Below, piece after piece: positions 14,462 to 63,144 of a DNA stretch of 64,000 bases; the first letter of the stretch is position 1; every line of letters starts with the position of its first letter. The notes under the pieces are model-generated. The model did not search any database and was not told where the DNA came from. It saw nothing but the letters and a program-made list of their open reading frames with translations. The stretch lies in contig CM037862.1 in assembly GCA_021292105.1 (NCBI GenBank), forward strand, positions 4,286,501 to 4,350,500, in the 5' to 3' direction. This DNA is from Anadara kagoshimensis. Its lineage: Eukaryota > Mollusca > Bivalvia > Arcoida > Arcidae. A program made the position numbers and the translations under genes.

Positions 14462-17400
14462 TTATTGTTGTATATTAAACTGAACAATGTCATATATTGA
14501 TTGGAGAGAGAGAGAGAGAGAATAAAATCATGTGTTTATATATGTTTTGATCTTTTTGCATTAAATATGATACTTTTTAACTGCATCATTTTGTATTTTA
14601 ATTTTGTAATATTATTTAGTTAGATGTTAGCAAATATTGTACAGATTTTCTGGAGCATTGTATGTTTTGTGATTCACTATAACACCTTTAATCTGATTGT
14701 TCAAGACTCGGTAGCTTTGTATACCAAAATGTCAGTGGAATTCAGAACTACCGTACTTGTAGTGTTTTATGCCCATTCAACTTTCATTCAGTTATATCGA
14801 GGCGGTCATTTCTGTGATGGACTAGGAAACAGAAGTTAAGAGAGATCAGAGCAGACAAATGAATGCATAATACAAGATCAATGACATACTCCCGGTTCGT
14901 TTCCGATCGAAGAATATCGAAAACCTTCTGTAAAATGCCCCAGAATCCAAGGTAAAGCATACTTTTCATAGCAGAAATCTTAAAGGAAACGTCACGAATC
15001 CAGAAAAAACGAATGCAGATCAGATCTGTCAGACTGCAAAGAAACGCAAGATATAATCCGGAATCCGACGTAAACGTCACTATTCCGATAACCATCAGTG
15101 CAGATAAATGATATAAACTGCTTTAGAAACGTATGCTTTATAATGGAATCTCGGAAACGTCATCTTTCCGCAAAACTAATGACGTAAACCTGCCGTAAAC
15201 ATATAAATTACTGCACAGAAATGTAAAACATATTGCGGAATATATCGGAATATTCAAGATTCCGTCAAAAAGCTCTTTAAATTTGCTGTAAACCTGACGG
15301 AATCGGAACAATTCAATGCGGAAACCATCGTTTACATCTTATTTCCGACTAAACGGTTACGGAATTTACCAGAAAACCTCTCGTTTCCGTTTAAAGTTTT
15401 GACTGAAACCACACAGAAACCTGTGAACAACAAAAGAAAACGTTTAACATTTGGACGGAATCTAGTCACGGAATTTTGTAGTTGCCGACTTATTTTTGAC
15501 GGAAACTATGCTGAATTTGGGCCATCTACGGGTTTCCGCAACGGCTGAATCGACAGTTTCCGTTGCGGAATGTCCACGGAATAAAGCCGGAAACGAATGG
15601 ATTCCGGTTGTTTTCCAAAAGGATTCCGTCACCGGAATCTGCACTTTTCGTCCTGTGTAATTGACACATATTATATAAGTTCCTTGTACCCTGTTTCAAA
15701 ATTATTTACTACATTTTTCAGTATTTCAAATCTGTCAAGTTAAAATATCCTGTTTTTATGGGAGTTTGAAGTTGGATATATTTAACATTATGGCATCAGT
15801 ATTTTCTTTTTTTCAATACGTCAGGCCTAGCTGCTAATATAAAACCAGTTTACATAAAAATTAAAAGGGTTGTGCCATGATGTAGAATTGTGCCTCTGTG
15901 ACACAAGTCATAGTTACACAATAGTGCGTTTAAAGCTACTTGAACAAATAGTCTTGATTATTTACACAGACATCTATAATATTGTCTGAATAACATGCTC
16001 TTATTTTTTAATACTGTATTTTAGTTGTGATGTGCTAATTTTTGAATATTTTATTTCAGTTGTCTTTCAATTTGGAATAGGATTTTCAGTTGTCATTTGC
16101 TAATATTGGAATAGCATATTTCAGTTGTCGTGTGCTAACGTTGGAATAGCATTTTTAGTTGTCATTTGCTAATATGTGAATAGCATATTACAGTTGTCAC
16201 GTGCTAACATTGGAATAACATAGTTCAGTTGTCATGTGCTAACTTGGAATAGCATATTTTAATTGCCATATACTAACTTTGGAATTGCTTATTATAGTTA
16301 TCTTTTGCTAACTTTGGATAAACATATTTCAATTGTCATATGCTAACTTAAAAATAGCATATTTTAGTTGTCATATGCTAAATTTGGAATACTACAAATA
16401 TCATATTTCAGTTGCCAGGTGTTAACTTTGGAATATCATATTTCCTCAAGTTTGAATAGCATATTTAAGTTGTCATGTGCTAACTTTGGAAAAGCATATA
16501 TTAGTTGTCATTTGCTAATTTTGGAATCTCATATTTTAGATGTCATATGCTTACTATGGAATAGCATATCTTAGTTGCCATGTGCTAACTTTGAAATAGC
16601 ACATATTAGTTGTCATATGCTAACTTTGAAATAGCATATTTCAGTGTCACGTGCTAACTTTGGAAGATCATTATTTAGTTGCTATGTGCTGATGTTGGAA
16701 AAGAGCAAATTTCAGTTACCATGTGGAAATTTTTAAACAGCGTTTCAGTTGTCTTATGCTAACTTTGGAAAAACATATTTCAGTTGCCATGTGGTAACTT
16801 TGGAATATCATATTTCAGTTGGCATGTGCTAACTTTGGAATAGCATATTTCAGTGTCATGTGCTAACTTTGGAAGATCATTGTTCAATTGCCATGCACTG
16901 ATGTTGGAAAAGAGCAAATCTCAGTTACCATGTGGAAATTTTTGAAAAGCATTTCAGTTGGCTTGTGCTAACATTGGAAAAAACATATTTCAGTTGCCAT
17001 GTGGTAACTTTGGAATATCATATTTCAATTGTCATGTGCTAACTATTGAATAGCATATTTAAGTTGTCATGTGCTAACTTTGGAATTGCATATTTCAGTT
17101 TTCATGTGCTATTAAACTATGAATAGCATGTTTTAGTTGACATGTGCTAACTTTTAATAGTAGATGCTATTTCAGTTTCCTTGTGCTAGCATATTTGTAC
17201 AGACATTTGCCACTGATGGAAACTCCTCTGACTCTGTACCAGTCACCTCAGACTCTTGAGTACCCAAAGGCACTATCCTAGGACCCATCCTTTTTCTTGT
17301 ATATATGATATATATGATATATAAATGATTTACCAGAGCATCTAAAACACAACAAAGTTCTACTATTTGCAGATGACATCATTATCTACAGAAGGGTAAT

Positions 17401-19024
17401 CAAGCATTAAATCAAGTAATTATTTAGACTTAAACACAGCATCTAGGTGGATAAAGTCTGGCTCATGGCTTTCTATCCAAATACGCTTTCCTCTCTGTTA
17501 CATCTAGAACGAGATGCATTAAAACACGAAACTTCTATATCTTAACATGACTACATTTTTCATAATCATAAACTAACTAGACCATGTCTCTTCTGCAAAA
17601 TACCTTGGCATCAGTCTCTTTAGTCAGATCTTAATTTGACATTGACAACATCTCTGCAAATGGAATAGGTCTCTTGGATTTCTCAATAGAAACCTCAAAA
17701 TAGTTAATAGCAAACATCACAATTAACAGCACAGCATACCAAGCACTGGTAAAACCCAAGATTGAGCTGTTCGGTATGGGACCCCCACAAATCAACATTG
17801 ATCAACAAACTAGACATGGTGTTCATGCAGCACAATGCAGCTTGTTTTCAATGAAACAGATACCATAACAATGGAAGTTTCAGTAACATGATGGGGCAGC
17901 TGCAGTGGCCAATCTTAGCAGAAACAAGACAGAATTCAAAACTCACCATGTTCTATAAAATCACACAACACCTTGTCCTTGTTGAAAACCTTTACATTCA
18001 GATTACTCATCCAAGCAGACTCAAGGACTGTAATTGAAAGAAGGAGAATAACTTGAAATGGTGAAACACTGAGCAGCTGCATTGAGTACCATAACACAAA
18101 CAGTGTTAGTAATACGGGGGCTGCAGTGGCCAACCTTAGCAGAGTGATAATTGAAATCATGGCTCATTAATATGTTCTGTTGATTCTCCCACTCAATTGT
18201 TACAGTCCCATACAGTGACATACTTATCCCAGCAGACTCAAGGGTCAGAAACTTGCATACAGATCTACAGACACATGCTTCTAACAAATAATGTAAATTC
18301 TCATTCTTCCTGCTCGCCCACTTACACATTGAAATCTCCTGCTGGCTTACATTGCCAAAAATCCAACTATTGACTCCTTCTGAGAACAACTTTAATAATC
18401 TGTTGTTCTCACACCACTTTATCACTCAATTTCACTTTACCCTGTACTTAATACTTTTAATCACTACAATATTGTCACTTTGTTTTCTGCACTTTATTCT
18501 TTACATAAGTCCACACATGCTAGCATGTAATGTCTAATTTTGAATGTAATGTTACTGCTGTAATTGAAAGTGACAGAAGCATATCAAGTTCAGTTATTCC
18601 ATACAAGGCCATTCACTAGAAAATGTACATTTCTGGCAAAAACTTAAGTATTACAGTCCCAACAGAAGCACATTGCTAGGCTGTTTTAAATGCTGTACAA
18701 AATAAATGTGTGTGAAATTGTAACAAAACAGGCTTGTTTACTTGTCATAGGAAATTTAGGCACCACAACTCTGCAATATTTCCCATACCACAGTGTAATG
18801 TGTCAAGAAACAATTCCCCAGGAGAATCTGTGACTGGAATAGCCTCTCAGACAGCTTTGTACTAAGTGAGATGTTTGACATAGTTTGTTTAACAAATCTT
18901 CATTGCAATGTTGTCAGCAAAATTGCAAGTTGTTTTATCTTATATTTAAAATACCCATTGTCCCCATTGTTAATTTACCTTTGATCTTTCCTGTCATGTT
19001 ACATGCCATTAAACAAAACTACAT

Positions 19025-20629: not shown

Positions 20630-22212
20630 ACCATTGGACCATGGCTTATAATGGTCAGTTATGTTTTGCAATGATTGTAGGGGAAATAAAACCTATAAAG
20701 CATCGAAAATTTGCAGCTGGTTAAAAATTCTTTCTTATTTAATTGGATTTGTGTTGAAGTGTATTAATATTGTCATGTGCTGATTCAAAATTAAAATTCA
20801 AATATGACAAGACAGCTCATTTTGAATACAAGTACCTGCTTGGTCAAATTAAATATATTTGGTGTCTAGTGTGCCTTGATAATTAAAAAACATCATATAA
20901 ATGTTTCTTCCAATTAGGTATTGAAGTAAAATTTTCGTCTGAGTGTGTTTTGCATTTGCACACTTAAACTTGTAAATCAATAAATAATGGTGTGTTTCAA
21001 TGTTCTGCTTGACCTGCTTGGTCAAATTAAATATATTTGGTGTCTAGTGTGCCTTGATAATTAAAAAACATCATATAAATGTTTCTTCCAATTAGGTATT
21101 GAAGTAAAATTTTCGTCTGAGTGTGTTTTGCATTTGCACACTTAAACTTGTAAATCAATAAATAATGGTGTGTTTCAATGTTTTTCTTATTTTAGCAAAC
21201 AGTATTTGTAATTTTTATAAAATCACAGTTATTAAATATTGCAGTGTTTTTCAATTTCACAGAATGTAGACAAGCTTTATGGTCAACTGTCAATGCTAAA
21301 CCATCTGAAGGCCAAGGCTATCTTTTAATGACACTGGATGATATTGGAGCCCTTAAACCTGTTAAAAAGATGGAAGATATACAGGAAATATTTGAAGAAG
21401 TTGGCTGTGGGATGCTGCCACCACCAAGCAAAGAGGTCCAAATGGCAATCAAAAGGATAAAAACAATGCCACTTACTACTGCCGCCCATTATACCACAGT
21501 AGGCTCGTATGTCAACCATCTTTATCAGGAAGAAAAATTAACTGATGTAGTTGTGCGTATAGGAAATCAATGTTTCTATGGACATCGAGTGATCATGGCA
21601 TCCTATAGTTTATATTTTGATGACCTCTTTAAGAACCCTGAAAACAACAAATCACCAGCCTACATACGGTTGAGAGGAATATGTCCAAAAGCCTTCAAAA
21701 CGTTTATGGATTTTATTTACACCGGCCAATTGAACATAACACCAGATGTTATTGGGGATCTAATCGTGTTGTCAGATTTGCTAAAAGTCGCAACTCTGCG
21801 ATCCAAATGTTCTGACTTCATGGAAGAAATATCGGTAGAACAAGCATTGATCTTGCTTGCCAAAGGAAAACTCAAACCAGAAACTGAGCTGTTTGATTTT
21901 GCTGTGAACAGTATATTCCACCATTTTACCGATCTTTACAAGAGAGATGTATTCCTGCAAATAGATCTCAAGACATTGTGTCTAATACTGGATCATGACT
22001 ATTTGAAGATTACTTCAGAATATGAAGTATTCGAGGCAGGGCTAAGATGGATTGCGTCATCATTGCACGAGAGACAACAGCATATTGAAGAGGTCATGGA
22101 ATGTGTCAGATTTCCTTACATGACACAGAAAGAATTATTTGAATGCATGAAGGTTACAGATTTACTAAGGACCAACGAAGCATGTCAAAGGATGGTTCTT
22201 GAAGCAAACTGG

Positions 22213-29975: not shown

Positions 29976-30934
29976 GCTCTGCCTCCTTGATTCATAGACA
30001 ACAAGTTTAATGCGATAGACTAAATGAAAAAGGCAAAACCAAAATGCGAAGATGCAAAAGCGATTAGCCGAAAGAGCGATAATTTTAAATTCATATCTCT
30101 CGTATCCACGTTTTCGCGTGATTTCTTCGCCGTCACGTTTAAGGCAAGGGAAACAAGCCTAACAAACCGTCATATTTACTTAGTTCTCGATCTGTACGTA
30201 AAACATGCATGGCCCATAAATCAATATTATCAATCATGTACGTGCAAATATACTACTTAAGGGGCATGGTTTATATTTAAATTTCATAATCGACCTATGT
30301 TGATATACTTCAAAGAAGCACTAGACATTGAATGATTTAAGTAACCTGGTATGTTTAAGAGACAAAATCCACCTGTATTTTACACAATACTTGGTCTCTA
30401 CATGACATTTAAAACCGAATCACGCAATATTAACTTGTAGTAAGTAGGTCCTCGTTCATTATTTACGTATTTTAGTATTATTACGGTATTGACAAATAAA
30501 GCAAAATAATACACTTGAATGACGTGGGCAGGCAGGATGACATGCAGAGTATCAATACAATACAGTCCCTTAATTTTCATTAATTAATCATCTATATATA
30601 ATAACTGGTAAATAAAAACCCGTATATGCATTAAAGTTATACATAAAAGACGCATCGCGAATCTATTCAACTGTAGATATTAAGAATTGTACATACAATA
30701 CCGTTATGTTAATTGTATACATTTAACAATAGCAGAATTATGAATAGAGCCGGTTTTGTAATGGGAGAAGTAAGAAATAAGAAGGATCAATTTACATTTG
30801 ATCTACAGTTGAGGACCTCGGGGGCACGACTGGTACAGGAGCTAGCGCCAAATATTAATAAATAGGTCTCAATAAACATTAATATAAATTATAATCAAAA
30901 TGTTTACATATATCCGACATTTTGATAAGATAAA

Positions 30935-37836: not shown

Positions 37837-37908
37837 TAGCAGAGCGTGGTTTCGATCCACGGACATCTGGGTTATGGGCCCAGCACGCTTCCACTGTGCC
37901 ACTCTGCT
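37837..37908 (-). tRNA. Initiator tRNA-Met (CAT anticodon)
   Basis: A 72-nt gene that folds into a full cloverleaf. The acceptor stem is AGCAGAG/CTCTGCT with A1:U72, the anticodon stem has three G:C pairs (CTGGG/CCCAG) around CCCATAA, and the T arm is CGTGG-ATCGAAA-CCACG with A54. These are the eukaryotic initiator hallmarks. It differs from the vertebrate gene as I recall it mainly by compensatory changes in the T stem. A T5 run follows seven bases past the 3' end. No intron. Confidence 0.97.
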
Positions 37909-42410: not shown

Positions 42411-42830
42411 GCCAAAAACAGTAGATTAAATTATGAATGGGCAAGTGTATAATCTTCCAGGACCCAGTTGGTCCAAGCTTGATAAGCTTCATCAATGATT
42501 AACACAAACTTAAAATATCAATAAAAATCATCATATCATCATAAAATCCATAGATTTATAGCCACGTGCTTCAATTTGTTGAAATCCTATTCACTAACGA
42601 CATTTTCAACATCAATTTCACAACAGATTTGAAATTATGCATTATTTAAATTCTGACAAATCAATTGATTAAACTAACCAGGCTTCGAACAACTTAACCC
42701 AGGTTTCTCCTTCTACCTATCCCTTATAATAACATCTATACTCGAACTTTCCAAAATAGAAATACATGTAGAAACCATGGAACAAACGATTACATCAGCG
42801 ACCCTCTTGTAAGTATAGTTTTATCACAGG

Positions 42831-43953
42831 TACATAAGGGTTTCGGCTTTGAGACTTCGACAAAACCAAACTCTCCAGTATAAGTTGTATATAAGGCTTT
42901 CTTTGAGACTTTGACAAAACCAAACTCTCCAGTACAAGTTGTACATAAGGCTTTCTTTAAGACTTTGACAGAACCAAACTCTCCAGTACAAGTTGTACAT
43001 AAGGCTTTCTTTAAGACTTTGACAAAACCAAACTCTCCAGTACAAGTTGTACATAAGGCTTTCTTTAAGACTTTGACAAAACCAAACTCTCCAGTACAAG
43101 TTGTACATAAGGCTTTCTTTAAGACTTTGACAGAACCAAACTCTCCAGTACAAGTTGTACATAAGGCTTTCTTTGAGACTTTGACAAAACCAAACTCTCC
43201 AGTACAAGTTGTACATAAGGCTTTCTTTGAGACTTTGACAAAACCAAACTCTCCAGTACAAGTTGTACATAAGGCTTTCTTTGAGACTTTGACAAAACCA
43301 AACTCTCCAGTATAAGTTGTACATAAGGCTTTCTTTGAGACTTTGACAAAACCAAACTCTCTAGTATATGTTGTACATAAGGCTTTCTTTGAGACTTTGA
43401 CAAAGCCAAACTCTCCAGTATATGTTGTACATAAGGCTTTCTTTGAGACTTTGACATAACCAAACTCTCCAGTATATGTTGTACATAAGGCTTTCTTTGA
43501 GACTTTGACATAACCAAACTCTCCAGTATAAGTTGTACATAAGGCTTTCTTTGAGACTTTGACAAAACCAAACTCTCCAGTATAAGTTGTACATAAGGCT
43601 TTCTTTGAGACTTTGACAAAACCAAACTCTCCAGTATATGTTGTACATAAGGCTTTCTTTGAGACTTTGACAAAACCAAACTCTCCAGTATAAGTTGTAC
43701 ATAAGGCTTTCTTTGAGACTTTGACAAAACCAAACTCTCCAGTATATGTTGTACATAAGGCTTTCTTTGAGACTTTGACATAACCAAACCGTACATAAGG
43801 GTTTCTTTGAGACTTTGACAAAACCAAACTCTCCAGTATAAGTTGTACATAAGGCTTTCTTTGAGACTTTGACAAAACCAAACTCTCCAGTATATGTTGT
43901 ACATAAGGCTTTCTTTGAGACTTTGACAAAACCAAACTCTCCAGTATAAGTTG
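42831..43953. repeat. 54-bp minisatellite, ~20 copies
   Basis: The unit is TACATAAGGCTTTCTTTGAG, ACTTTGACAAAACCAAACTC, TCCAGTATAAGTTG. Copies differ at a few sites that are grouped by position: GTACAAG with TTTAAGAC at 42930-43150, GTATATG from 43360. One copy near 43780-43800 is truncated. 54 = 3 x 18, so the minus strand reads openly for 396 codons as repeats of KKALCTTYTGEFGFVKVS, and other frames are open too. No start context, introns or non-repeat protein supports a gene. Confidence 0.93.
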
Positions 43954-44850: not shown

Positions 44851-45098
44851 AATGCTTTCCAATTAAATGTCCACCAACGTTAACGGCGTTGTAGTTAATT
44901 GTCGGCTGCAAAATGCTTCTAAATATTGATACACGTATTAAAACATACGACTACACTTTTATTCCATTGTAATCTCTTTCATTTGTAGTACATTACAGTT
45001 AGAAAAATATTTGGAATGCAAGTATTAAGATGTCATTCGTAGATTCATATTCGATTGAGCCAATAGGCAATTACATATTATACCAGTTTTAATTTTAC

Positions 45099-45144
45099 AG
45101 CACTAGACGGCCGTTTCGGAATACAATTCCTCATCAGTAGTGCT
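45099..45144 (-). ncRNA. Type I hammerhead ribozyme, copy 1
   Basis: On the minus strand: stem I AGCACTA, core CTGATGA, stem II GGAAT-TGT-ATTCC, core GAA, short stem III A-C...G-T around GGCC, cleavage triplet GTC, stem I return TAGTGCT. All seven stem I pairs match and every invariant core base is present. The cut falls between positions 45106 and 45105. A stem III of only 2-4 bp is usual for Penelope and retrozyme hammerheads and often needs a dimer to cut well. Confidence 0.92.
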
Positions 45145-45437
45145 TGGACCAAAATTATGAAACCAAAATTATTTTGCAGATGTTGAAAAGCTACCCAAAG
45201 GACCAAAATATATTTTACCAACTTAAGCTAAGGAAATACTTTGCATGAGGGAGTATACCTTAGTTTTTGAGAAATTTCAAATTTTAACTTGCAGGAAATT
45301 TAGAGAATTATAGTATATTTCTGACAATAATACGAAATTATTGCCTACTGAGTTGGTGATATCCTCGGGGCACCAGCCACCAGCAGAGATATCGGCTCAG
45401 GGGTTTAAATTACATATTATACCAGTTTTAATTTTAC

Positions 45438-45483
45438 AGCACTAGACGGCCGTTTCGGAATACAATTCCTCATCAGTAGTGCT
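45438..45483 (-). ncRNA. Type I hammerhead ribozyme, copy 2
   Basis: Identical to the copy 339 bp away, with the same core and stems. Cleavage is predicted between 45445 and 45444. Cleavage at both sites would release a 339-nt linear RNA with ends suited to circularisation. Confidence 0.92.
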
Positions 45484-46070
45484 TGGACCAAAATTATGAA
45501 ACCAAAATTATTTTGCAGATGTTGAAAAGCTACCCAAAGGACCAAAAATAAAATCGAAAATGAACAATAATAATTTGTTTTAGTATCATGTTATATTTAT
45601 AGACATATAACACAAACACCAATACTGGTTTTATTGAGTGTTATACAATTATTAATTTTGATTTATTTTGACACTATAGTCAGCCATCGATCACTTGTTA
45701 CGTAACTAACTCACAGCGATTGCTGCAAGCTATTTTCACGATAATCTAAACTCAACCAAACATTGTGACACATTTATAACATCACGATAAACACAATAAT
45801 ATTAATATGAATAGAACTTTTAAAATACCACTTTCAGTCTAATCGATCTTTGATCCATTGTACAGGGAAGGTGTCAGTGTGTCGCGGAAACCTGTCCGGA
45901 TTTTGTACTAAATTAAGATAGTTCCTAACTGACTTCTTATTTAAATATGAAAATAACACAAAATGTATAAGTGATACGGAAATTAAACCGTGACAAGGGA
46001 ACAATAATTTCCCGCTTTTAGTTTTACAAATAAACATGCTATGTATAGTTATAAAAAAATCTGATGATAT

Positions 46071-46176: not shown

Positions 46177-46941
46177 TAATTTTACATGTTTTAAAATATA
46201 AAACATACTACAATTAACAAATCATTTGAAATATCCCCACTACACTACATTTGCGTAGCTTTCCCGTCGGTAAAATATTTTTCAATTAATACATGGAGTT
46301 AGAGATGCTGATTTCATTTAGTAATCCATTTCACAAAGCACCCTGATAAATTAAGACTAAAGTTGTATTACTTATCTACCTGTATAATACATGTATCTAT
46401 TATTTATTGAGTAATCTCACTTGTTTCTATATTTATATATTTTTTTCTATTGTAATGGCAATTCCATTTGAGAAATAGGGATGTTAACTTGATATTTCAT
46501 TGATGATGTCGTCAATATTCTAATGAAGATAAATCCATTAAATGTATTGATTTTTATCGGATCGAACTACGTCACTTTACCTTTTCCTTATAAAACTATG
46601 GTCTTTGTACTAGCTGTTAGTTTTATTGTTCATCCATGCATATATAATGTCATGAAGGAAAAGCAATCGTGATAAATGTCCCAGTTGTGATGCCAGCTTC
46701 CAAACAAGTGGGGTCGCTTATGTAGCTAATGAAATATGATTCACGTTAACTGTATAGTCGACTAAAAATACATAACACACAATATTCTCGGCAGGCTTAT
46801 TTTGTTATAGATATCTACCAGGCTAACTAGACACTAACTCTCACTTCTACTGGAAACTTGTATACAGAACCAATTGTTATAACTTGGAATTTTTAAAACA
46901 ACATCTAATTATAGTAATAATTATTATTATATTATTTCACA

Positions 46942-47221
46942 ATGGGTAAAACAGAATTTTATAATTTTGTCATCGTTATAGCATTTTCTATTTTAAGTAT
47001 CGCTGTATCAGAAATGTGTGATCCAAATAAAAATCCTAGTGCAATTACAATTGGAGAGAGGATTTATTACTCCCAACATGTTGTAGTGGGGACTGTTCAG
47101 GACATCATTAGGCCAGACCCCAAATATCAAAACCAGGAGAAGGCTTTTGGGGCTAAATTTACAGTAAAATGTATCTACAAGGGCGGTGCTATACCTGAAG
47201 ACATTACCATCGTAGGAGCAG
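46942..47221 (+). CDS. Secreted protein, first coding exon (partial gene)
   Basis: ATG in context ACAATGGGT, then a clear signal peptide at residues 1-23 (VIVIAFSILSIAVS core). The mature start is near EMCDPN, followed by HVVVGTVQDIIRPDP and FTVKCIYKGGAIPEDITIVG. Donor is GCAG|GTGAGA, phase 1. The pattern of one early Cys, a 'VVVGTV' strand and a 'C.YKGG' strand recalls NTR/TIMP-like folds, but I cannot assign a family. I found no convincing next exon before the window ends, so the gene has a long intron, continues beyond the window, or is broken. A TATAAAA near 46590 could be its promoter. Confidence 0.6.
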
Positions 47222-47284
47222 GTGAGATGATGCTTGTAATATATATTTGGTGTTTTGTAAAAGGATATGATGATGATAATGATG

Positions 47285-47289
<5 letters not shown>

Positions 47290-47318
<29 letters not shown>
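47290..47318. repeat. GATGAT then GA microsatellite
   Basis: Begins as GATGAT units from 47268 and becomes GA, about 70 nt into the first intron of the secreted-protein gene. Confidence 0.95.
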
Positions 47319-47321
<3 letters not shown>

Positions 47322-49345
47322 AAATGTGCCGTATTATTTTTGAAATTGGAATGCAAAAAATGTGGTACAACGTGGTCACAGTAATGTGGAAATGTAGACG
47401 CCTACTCACGTGCTTGTGAACCTTACGATTTTTCATACAAAAATGCATGACATTTAAATCCTTTATTTTAGAAAATTGAACTTTAAAATGCTGGAAAAAT
47501 TAATTTTGTTATATGGTAGTAGTATGACAAATCAGTTTGATAATTCGCCATCAGCATGTTTGTTTGGGATTGATTTTTATATAATTCTGTCTATATCGAT
47601 TTCATACTACTTGTTATGAATGGCTATGTGACTTTTTGTTGTAAACTCTTACCAACTTTTATCAATACCATCAAAGCATATCATTTAACAGCCGGCAACA
47701 TTACAAAAAATCTCGGGACAAAGATGTGGGAAAATCAATAAAAACTCTATTTTTTCAAAATACTCAGTGTCGGTTTTACATCTGCATATTAATGTGTAGA
47801 CACGTGCTGCTCTACATAGTTAACTGTTGCATGAGTAACAGAGGTAGTGACCTCGTTAGCGCCGTGTACTTTTTTTTGTAAAATATTTCATAAACAACAC
47901 TGCACGGACACACGGACGTACATTCGCACGCACATTGATACATGTACGATGTTCTTTTTATATATATACGTACTATATGATGATATGTACTGGTTGATGA
48001 ATTGATACAGCCTGTTTTATTTTAAGCATGGCCCTCAGAGTTAAGTAGGCATGACAGAAGTCAAATATTTGCAACTCAACATCTTGGTCTGAATCAATTA
48101 CCCCTTTACTTCTTTGTCTAATGAATACAAGCGCGTCCGTATTCACTCGACATCTGGTTGAATTTACCCTGCTTTGTCACGGTGATGAAAATAAACCATT
48201 TCCCCTTTCTTTATCAAGTTTGTATGCATAAATTTCAGGATGCTATTTTTATTTCGCAAAATTAATTTTATCATAATATCTTAATGAATGGGATGCAACA
48301 ATGGCATGGTTTTAAACAAAATCAAGACCGCATGTATCGGTGAATAAATTAAAGATTTTTTATGTCCATAAAACATATTTAAATTGTTCCCTTATTTTAA
48401 TTTCAGGGCACGTGTTATTTATTGATAAAAATATGACTTATTAAATTCTTGACATTTTGAATGATTGTAATAAGATAAAATTACACATAGCATGTGGTGT
48501 CATATTATTATTTTGAAATTCCATTTAAAATGACAGAAGTTTTCACTTAATTATATAATAACAATATCGATGGTCATTCTATTAGCAGGAACAATAATTT
48601 AATTAGATGTCCAGCATGTATTTATGTCGGGACAAATTATGTCCACTTGTCATGTCCATTGTCCATCCTTCTGATATAATTAATATAAGTATTGTGGTGA
48701 CAGCTTATACCGGTATTTAGACCTGTTACCTGACAGATGACGTTAACGCTAGCCCCTTCATTATAAATCAAAGCCACGTGCCATTTTGTCAAGTCAGGAG
48801 GGCAATTAGGTCTAGGCTATGAAGTAGGGAGGGGGTCATCATGCCATTTGGTAAATAAATAAATAAATAAATAAATAAATATTGAATCAGAACCACTCGT
48901 CTTGCTTAGATAAGTCTAATACCTTGACATTTTTGAATAATGTTCAACACACCCAAGTAACACCGTAACGGTCTGACTCTCTCCAACTATTTTTTTTTGT
49001 TTATTTTTTGTGGTGACAGTAAGTGCACTGGGTAAAAGGTTCTTTGTCTCGCGCTTCAGTGAAGCGTCACATCAACATACCATGTACCATGTAGACACAC
49101 AATGAACAGGGAAGCTGCTTGTTAAGTAGCAAGCTGGGCCTTGAATTTAAATATTAAAACGGGAACAAATAACAGGGAACAATAAAAATGGAAATTAGGC
49201 AGTAATTGAGGAAAAGGGTTATTTTCTGTCATTGAAATTATTAGTTATATCTAAGGCTGATTTTTGTTCGAAGATAAATAATGAATATAAAATAACAGTA
49301 TACCACTAGAGATAAATGTAATAACGGCATGGTATAGAGATACAG
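47319..49345. other. No exon recognised after the secreted-protein exon
   Basis: Presumed intron or intergenic DNA. I looked for a phase-1 acceptor followed by coding sequence and found none convincing. Confidence 0.4.
48851..48883. repeat. AAAT microsatellite
   Basis: About eight AAAT units. Confidence 0.95.
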
Positions 49346-60400: not shown

Positions 60401-61898
60401 CATGGGAGAAAAACGTTGGAACTCTGTCCAGTGGTGATGTGCCAAGAGAATTTACATAGCATTTATCACCTTTTGTGTGTAATTAGAACCATTATAAAAA
60501 CTATTATTACAGTATCCTTGACTTGAGAACATTACACAAGAGGAAAACAAATGTATTTGGCACCGTGTAACACTTACAAAAATGTTGTTAGGTAAAACTG
60601 CCAATATGTGCTTGTCACTCTAGACTGATTACATTGCATCTTAGTAAATACGGATGATAGTATGCCAATATATATATATATTAGCAAATAAAATATCGTT
60701 TACGACATTGAAGGGTACATAACACTTAATCATAGAGGTGAAAAATGATCATTTTGATTGTTAGTGGTATACGTTTCGTTTCCATGTGAACAAAACTTCT
60801 CAAGATCTCAATCTCAAGCATGAGGAATTTGAAAGATAATTTTTTTTCTTCAAAATTTGCTTTTAATGAAATCTTCTTTGCAAAACTGGTAAGTACTTGT
60901 AAGGCAACAATTGGTAAACCAACTGGTAAACCTACCCTCGTCCTACCCCAACCCCAATTTGTCGCCTGGTTTAATTAAAATAGCAACTTGTCTTTAGATT
61001 TAGAATTAAATAGATACAACAGGAAGTCTGAATGAATTAAGACACAGTATATGACAGTTCAACAAGTTTGACCAAGCAATATTACAACAATCTATAAACA
61101 ACGTTCAGTTTAACTGATGGATTGCAATTGATTAGGTTTTGACAAATTCAGTTTTGATAGTGCCAATTTCCATGTACACAAAATAAGAAAATCACACCCG
61201 TTCATGTTTGAACATTTGGAATCATAATCATGTATAGCAGTTGAAGAGTCAGGTTAAGGAATCCAAAAGAACCTTGACCTTGATTTGAGGTGATATATAT
61301 AAGACATGACACTTGACCTAGTTTACAAATACATACAATAGGGTTGAAAATTTCAAAATAACTTTGAAAACCCAATTGCAACAAGGCTATCAAAAATAAA
61401 GGTAGAATGATATACATGTTTATGCAGATTTTCCTCGGTCGGTTCTTCTAATGTTTAGTGGCATGCAACCCTCTGGCGCTTCGCCTAATATTTATAGAGA
61501 TAAATCTTTTGTACATCTGTTAACACATAGTAATATACGAGTAAGATAAAGTGTCTAACATTGGAAATGTTTGCAGTAATTAGTCTCAAGGATATATTTT
61601 AGATGAAAAAACTACTTCTTAAGATTTTCCTATATCGCTTTGCTCTTTTATAGGAATTTCATCTCATTTTCACGTTGTTTACTGAATTCCAGGATTGTTT
61701 ACAAAAGTCATATCGATATTTTGCTTTCCACTCGACTAAAGTAGTAAGTGAGATACTAAAACTGTTCTCTGAAACAACCATAAAACAAGGATTTGAAACA
61801 TTATAGACGACTGCGTAGCACAAAACGACTTAACCACAAAGTTCTAGAAAAATATAATGAATATACGAGTAACATAGTTACCACCTAATAAATTGATT

Positions 61899-61901
<3 letters not shown>

Positions 61902-61946
<45 letters not shown>
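61902..61946. repeat. CT microsatellite
   Basis: About 22 CT units. A GA array lies 210 bp further on, so the two could pair as inverted repeats. Confidence 0.97.
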
Positions 61947-61948
<2 letters not shown>

Positions 61949-62151
61949 GCTAACAAAGTCAGATAAACATGGTATCACATTCCAGCTTTCCCCCATTTCT
62001 TCTTTAATAAATTTGACCTTGCTTGAGCTTTAAGCTTCAAGCTTCGGACATTTTAGTTTCCAAGTTGTGTCTCTTTAGTTGATTTATAATGATTTATATA
62101 AGAGTGTAACGTGGTACCATATATCAAATCCAGTTGCTCAGACAAAATGGT

Positions 62152-62152
<1 letters not shown>

Positions 62153-62191
<39 letters not shown>
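62153..62191. repeat. GA microsatellite
   Basis: About 19 GA units, complementary to the CT array at 61902. Confidence 0.97.
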
Positions 62192-62193
<2 letters not shown>

Positions 62194-63144
62194 TAGATGC
62201 ACTAAGTTATATATCAGTAAGAGACATCCAAGGTTACACTAGGACATGATCTACTGTCTGCTTATAGATAATGCATTGTTTGTTGTGAAGCTGATCCAAT
62301 TTATCGCTAATTACTTTTATTAGTAATGACATTTATGCAAACATGAACGCGTCACACCCTGAACTGCAATCTGAAGTATATTTATACGTACACAAATTTA
62401 ATATCAACAGTTGCCGACCTTTTGACTATAAATTTTGCTGAAATCCGTCCTGTCCAGAAAATTAGCATTAATTTGAAGACATAATACCAAAATGACATAC
62501 ATAATTACAGATTGTATTTCCAAATTCATTTAAATAACTATAATAGACATTTTGAAAAGGTTATTTCAATTAATCTTAATAAAATTCAAAAGTTAATCCA
62601 AGTTCATACAGTGAATAGAATTATGGTTACAGACAAGTTTACATTAACCCTGGATAACTCTGCCATTTACAACTATGCCATTTACCATGCTCATTTTGAT
62701 CCTATCTCGCTGGAGATCAATACAAAAACTGATAAAGCGCCTTCTATAGTTGTAGAAATATCAAAGGGTTAATACAAACAGACCAACGACTTAAAATTGC
62801 GTCAAATCTCTGGACACTATCTAACTCTAATATTTAGTGTATGTACAAAGTCGAGGATTTTATCAAAGTGGTACCAAACCCATTTGTTTTCTCTTTTCTT
62901 ACCAGATTGCCAGTGGTCGTTATTTATGAGCTGTTAGTATTTATTAGCAATTTCTTTGAGGAATGATTCTTTTAAACCAAGTAAAATTAACTTTGATACA
63001 CTGGTATTTACAATAAGCCTAATGCCACATTGCTAATGTCTTACAGATGGCGTTATTAAAATTACGTAACTCCTATACGATATATAGAGGAAGCGGTTCG
63101 TTGCATCAAAATATCGTGAAACCTGTTTAAAGAACCAAATATAT

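Follow-up and report, generated by a model that had tools for sequence, protein, structure and literature searches.

This locus raises the question of what kind of element places two hammerhead ribozyme motifs within a few hundred base pairs of each other, and what its RNA might do. A sequence-only reading had described a 46-nt type I hammerhead that occurs twice, in identical form, on the minus strand, the two lying 339 bp apart within apparently identical 140-bp repeats, and had named a retrozyme and a Penelope pseudo-LTR as possible sources. We addressed both points in the 64-kb window, by which we mean the whole stretch of DNA that was analyzed. 

The repeats and their hammerhead motif

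Comparison of the repeats and motifs confirmed this layout. Two direct repeats of 140 bp, 100% identical, start 339 bp apart (Table 1), and a comparison of their flanks revealed that the identity stops abruptly on both sides. No further copy of the element was found elsewhere in the 64-kb window. The abrupt ends of the overlapping repeats and this lack of another copy in the window fit a single insertion rather than a local array, and the copy is apparently young, with 0 differences over 140 bp. One candidate third copy, a 9-mer match at 30318, was rejected, as no hammerhead surrounds the 9-mer.

Table 1. Coordinates of the element and its parts within the 64-kb window
Feature	Coordinates	Strand	Basis
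Whole element, 479 bp (1.41 monomers of 339 bp)	45069..45547	-	5' end 45547, 3' end 45069; direct repeats and flank comparison
140-bp repeat, 5' copy in element orientation	45408..45547	-	100% identity to 45069-45208
140-bp repeat, 3' copy in element orientation	45069..45208	-	Direct-repeat comparison
Single-occurrence part, 199 bp	45209..45407	-	Lies between the repeats
Type I hammerhead, 5' copy, predicted cut 45445/45444	45438..45483	-	RF00163, 28.1 bits at 45439-45482 (below gathering); core and stems
Type I hammerhead, 3' copy, predicted cut 45106/45105	45099..45144	-	RF00163, 28.1 bits at 45100-45143 (below gathering); core and stems
Predicted 339-nt monomer (would-be circle)	45106..45444	-	Cut positions; 35.1% GC; longest stop-free reading 49 aa on the circle

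Both copies of the motif read 5'-AGCACUA CUGAUGA GGAAU UGU AUUCC GAA AC GGCC GU C UAGUGCU-3' on the minus strand. Each contains every part that had been listed for it from the letters (CTGATGA, GAA, GTC, a 7-bp stem I, a 5-bp stem II and a short stem III), in the order expected of a type I hammerhead under the usual core numbering and helix rules, with a 3-nt UGU loop closing stem II. Our script tallied three pairs for stem III. Since a third pair would leave a loop of 2 nt, we judge that helix III consists of two pairs, A-U and C-G, capped by a GGCC tetraloop. Cleavage is predicted after GUC in each copy, and the RNA between the two predicted cuts would measure 339 nt. The hammerhead reading and, as a prediction, the release of such an RNA, both proposed earlier, are supported by the sequence itself together with a covariance-model match below threshold.

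That match came from the Rfam model Hammerhead_1 (RF00163), which aligned end to end with both copies at 28.1 bits and an E-value of 9.4e-5 in a search of 621 bases. This score is below the gathering score of 34, and neither copy was listed in scans of the full 64 kb, whether at gathering or at E<=1. We take the miss in the latter scan to reflect its coarser filters, because the length-scaled E-value would be about 0.01. Another Rfam match over the same bases, JPX_2 (17.1 bits, gathering 48), was dismissed as a chance match.

Shuffled controls addressed the role of chance. A descriptor setting stems I, II and III to at least 5, 3 and 2 gave 2 matches in the window against 1 across 200 dinucleotide-shuffled windows, where the two matches are copies of one motif and hence a single independent event. 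When stem I was relaxed to at least 4 or at least 3, matches across the 200 shuffles rose to 9 and 21, respectively, and the count in the window stayed at 2. When up to 3 mismatches were allowed, a search for the 44-nt motif recovered the two known sites alone in the window, and none of 100 shuffles contained it.

Folding of single and paired hammerheads

We compared predicted fold energies, which exclude tertiary contacts and magnesium, for the motif alone and for longer RNAs. The 46-nt motif is mildly more stable than its shuffles (z -1.63, with 16 of 200 as good), and a 71-nt version less distinctly so (z -1.10, 27 of 200). For a single motif the hammerhead fold reaches -7.8 kcal/mol against -12.3 kcal/mol for the predicted minimum, which is without helix III. 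The 71-nt minimum contains a further helix, AAUUUU/AAAAUU, distal to stem I; the 66-nt hammerhead that includes this helix reaches -7.4, compared with -13.4 for the free fold. Loop 2 is only 3 nt long, and contact between loops 1 and 2 is a canonical type I feature; mussel hammerheads also do without most canonical type I contacts (PMC7229834). The whole 339-nt monomer is unexceptional as a linear RNA (z -0.64, 27 of 100 shuffles as good) and as a circle (z -0.85, 18 of 100), in which 57% of its bases are paired.

Such unremarkable folds, together with the score under the Rfam cut-off, speak for a defunct fragment of recent duplication, with a hammerhead that is inactive or arose by chance. 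This explanation appears very improbable, as it sits poorly with intact core positions, three intact helices, repeats that are 100% identical and a descriptor matched once in 200 shuffled windows.

Two copies of the motif are predicted to behave differently from one. The helix III palindrome ACGGCCGU allows an 8-bp helix III to form between copies in the predicted dimer, and the predicted minimum for two 46-mers is an exact double hammerhead, at -34.5 against 2 x -12.3 kcal/mol. This minimum combines the 8-bp helix III with two intermolecular 7-bp stems I and both stems II, and leaves the core bases open.

Within the 479-nt transcript, the free minimum lies at -99.9 kcal/mol, the full double hammerhead at -97.6 and two separate hammerheads at -86.8, while a single hammerhead gives -93.1 for the 5' copy and -92.7 for the 3' copy. 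Reading the free minimum pair by pair, we found that it includes one complete hammerhead assembled from both copies. Its stem I joins the 3' strand of the 5' copy to the 5' strand of the 3' copy, and its 8-bp helix III is built from the two palindromes. The 3' copy contributes the core, GAA and stem II, and the 5' copy the unpaired C17 beside the cut site. On this fold, the first cut would fall at the 45445/45444 site. This minimum leaves the reciprocal half of the double hammerhead unformed, and in it the core region of the 5' copy pairs elsewhere.

As a control, the 46-mer was refolded with all 256 tetraloops. GGCC ranked fifth of the 256, with a dimerization gain of -9.9 kcal/mol; about half of this gain is generic, because the mean over the 256 tetraloops is already -5.4 kcal/mol. 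The exact double hammerhead was the dimer minimum for 12 of the 16 palindromic loops, compared with 5 of the 240 others. In these models, the control and the transcript fold strengthen the case for the inter-copy fold and weaken the bare energy argument. The palindrome ACGGCCGU probably lets the hammerheads of a tandem transcript pair as a double hammerhead and so stabilizes a weak helix III, as far as folding models indicate.

Activity as a dimer is already known for newt and axolotl hammerheads (PMC7229834; PMC6155905). We tentatively propose, with more doubt than confidence, that the element represents a new family of retrozymes. Its single hammerheads, weak on their own, would work mainly within one molecule as a double hammerhead joined through the palindromic helix III; efficient cutting would then be confined to tandem transcripts, and a freed circle with one motif would be spared re-cutting. 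How retrozyme circles escape re-cutting by their own ribozyme is a puzzle stated in the published account of these elements (PMC7229834), one for which the predicted double hammerhead suggests an answer that can be tested.

A candidate metazoan non-LTR retrozyme

Given these features, we consider it likely that the element, 1.41 monomers long as inserted, is a copy of a non-autonomous metazoan non-LTR retrozyme. Both this type of mobile element and the action of newt and axolotl hammerheads as dimers were known before. Cleavage, circularization, expression and mobility are what we infer for the present copy. Transcription would run across both repeat copies, and self-cleavage at both hammerheads, the first cut being predicted from motif and fold, would free the 339-nt RNA. 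A host tRNA ligase of the RtcB type may then close this RNA into a circle, by analogy with other species, for which the tRNA ligase step has been described in vitro and circles as templates have been put forward as a model (PMC7229834). During insertion, finally, the circle would be copied for more than one turn by a reverse transcriptase from an autonomous Penelope-like or LINE element. If 479 nt were read off a 339-nt circle, 140 nt would be read twice, and this over-copying would generate terminal, identical repeats that each hold a ribozyme. On this reading the locus is a compact copy of such an element, and its length of 1.41 units is the product expected when a circular RNA is over-copied.

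The element most closely recalls the metazoan non-LTR retrozymes (Cervera and de la Pena 2020, PMC7229834), which include repeats of ~350-390 bp in Mytilus galloprovincialis and also have type I hammerheads in tandem, at a spacing of a few hundred bp. Its 339-bp monomer, with 35.1% GC, falls inside the ranges published for metazoan retrozymes (150-450 bp, GC below 45-50%; PMC7229834). Low GC, the non-coding character, the lack of any LTR, primer-binding site (PBS) or polypurine tract (PPT) seen, and a two-pair helix III with a tetraloop are common to both, the last being the form described for invertebrate hammerheads in PMC7229834. Two pairs are also found in HHR_Amex2, in contrast to the single pair of HHR_Amex1, with which the element shares a palindromic tetraloop (PMC7229834). 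This comparison covered the features named above, and the element differs from the metazoan non-LTR retrozymes in having 1.41 units only, no duplication found and less self-pairing.

Several points stand against the retrozyme reading: the absent duplication, the modest self-pairing, the Rfam score below gathering with no listing in the full 64-kb scans, a single-motif minimum that is not the active fold, a dimer gain that is partly generic and the half of the double hammerhead left unformed in the free minimum. No target-site duplication of at least 6 bp was found within 60 nt of the element ends, and none of 5 bp near the junctions, where only two 4-mers are shared, both offset, leaving no flush 4-bp duplication. 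In metazoan retrozymes such duplications exceed 4 bp when present and are not obligatory (PMC7229834). The 57% pairing of the circle falls short of the more than 70% given for metazoan retrozyme RNAs (PMC4918200), which we regard as a described tendency and not as a defining criterion.

On the circle, no stop-free reading exceeds 49 aa in either sense, a simple pattern search detected no Pol III A or B box in the element, and inspection by eye revealed neither a PBS nor a PPT next to the repeats. Two hammerhead patterns had 0 loci in IMG/VR, one pattern had 0 in prokaryote genomes, and the 339-bp monomer had no match among plasmids, collections not meant for animal DNA, in which absence says little. 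The sequence-only reading named no match for the monomer and suggested that the family may be new; a lack of this kind is by itself no sign of novelty, because repeat sequences of invertebrate retrozymes are species-specific as a rule (PMC7229834).

Penelope-like elements with hammerheads in their pseudo-LTRs resemble the locus in placing a type I hammerhead in partial-tandem repeats. They occur in tandem or partial tandem, with flanking UTRs that form the pseudo-LTRs and carry the hammerheads (PMC11167929; PMC7761336), so that the locus might be a piece of such partial-tandem pseudo-LTRs or an internally deleted Penelope copy. However, Penelope hammerheads are usually minimal and without helix III (PMC7761336, PMC6155905), whereas the element has one (AC-GGCC-GU). 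The element also has no coding part and no ORF inside it, and a Penelope domain was absent from all 11 open stretches of the window that were run against Pfam. We regard this origin as unlikely, and as less likely than a retrozyme because of the helix III that Penelope hammerheads usually lack. Of the two sources named in the sequence-only reading, the retrozyme is accordingly the better fit, by helix III, size, GC and the absence of an ORF.

Plant LTR retrozymes share with the element a non-coding sequence and a hammerhead in each terminal repeat (PMC4918200; PMC7761336). Their hammerheads are type III, however, in units of 600-1000 nt with repeats of ~350 bp, compared with type I, 339 nt and 140 bp here (PMC7761336). 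They also have a 4-bp duplication, a PBS and a PPT (PMC7761336), unlike the element. We rejected an assignment to this class given the type I hammerhead, the lack of a PBS or PPT seen and the lack of a flush duplication.

The satellite-type retrozymes of newt and axolotl are comparable in having monomers of ~330-350 bp and hammerheads that act as dimers, the latter being predicted for the element (PMC7229834). It was in satellite repeats that hammerheads of newts were first reported (PMC7229834), and a fragment of satellite DNA, dispersed or shortened by unequal crossing-over instead of reverse transcription, would accord with the lack of a target-site duplication. We give this explanation little credence: the window holds 1.41 units only, and published work reads hammerhead satellite repeats as retrozymes themselves (PMC7229834). 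Because published work calls such repeats retrozymes, the distinction is mainly one of how copies spread.

Surroundings of the element

The window as a whole is low in GC and rich in microsatellites and minisatellites, which, together with a BTB/BACK open frame and a tRNA-Met, suggests an animal source. One repeat, at 42830-43953, comprises 21 copies of a 54-bp unit and is likely a minisatellite; several frames run open through it, and one on the minus strand reads 397 aa from stop to stop. Another, at 20834-21182, consists of two repeats of a 178-bp unit with a 100% match, just upstream of a BTB/BACK open frame (1 of 7 frames with a Pfam match). An Rfam MIR1023 match at 61893-62204 on the plus strand (41.1 bits, gathering 90) spans CT and AG microsatellites and is probably a simple-repeat artefact.

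On the strand opposite to the element and 1.4 kb from it, an open frame at 46921-47340 (+) has near its start a stretch that by eye resembles a signal peptide. This frame had no Pfam match and may be a first exon. A scrap of reverse transcriptase at 17318-17407 (+), from one of the 11 open stretches run against Pfam, has an FADD motif, has a LINE-like look and matches RVT_1 at an E-value of 0.034, below the Pfam cut-off; it is probably a decayed LINE. Finally, the minus strand carries a tRNA-Met (CAT) at 37837-37908, which we take to resemble an intact eukaryotic initiator tRNA.
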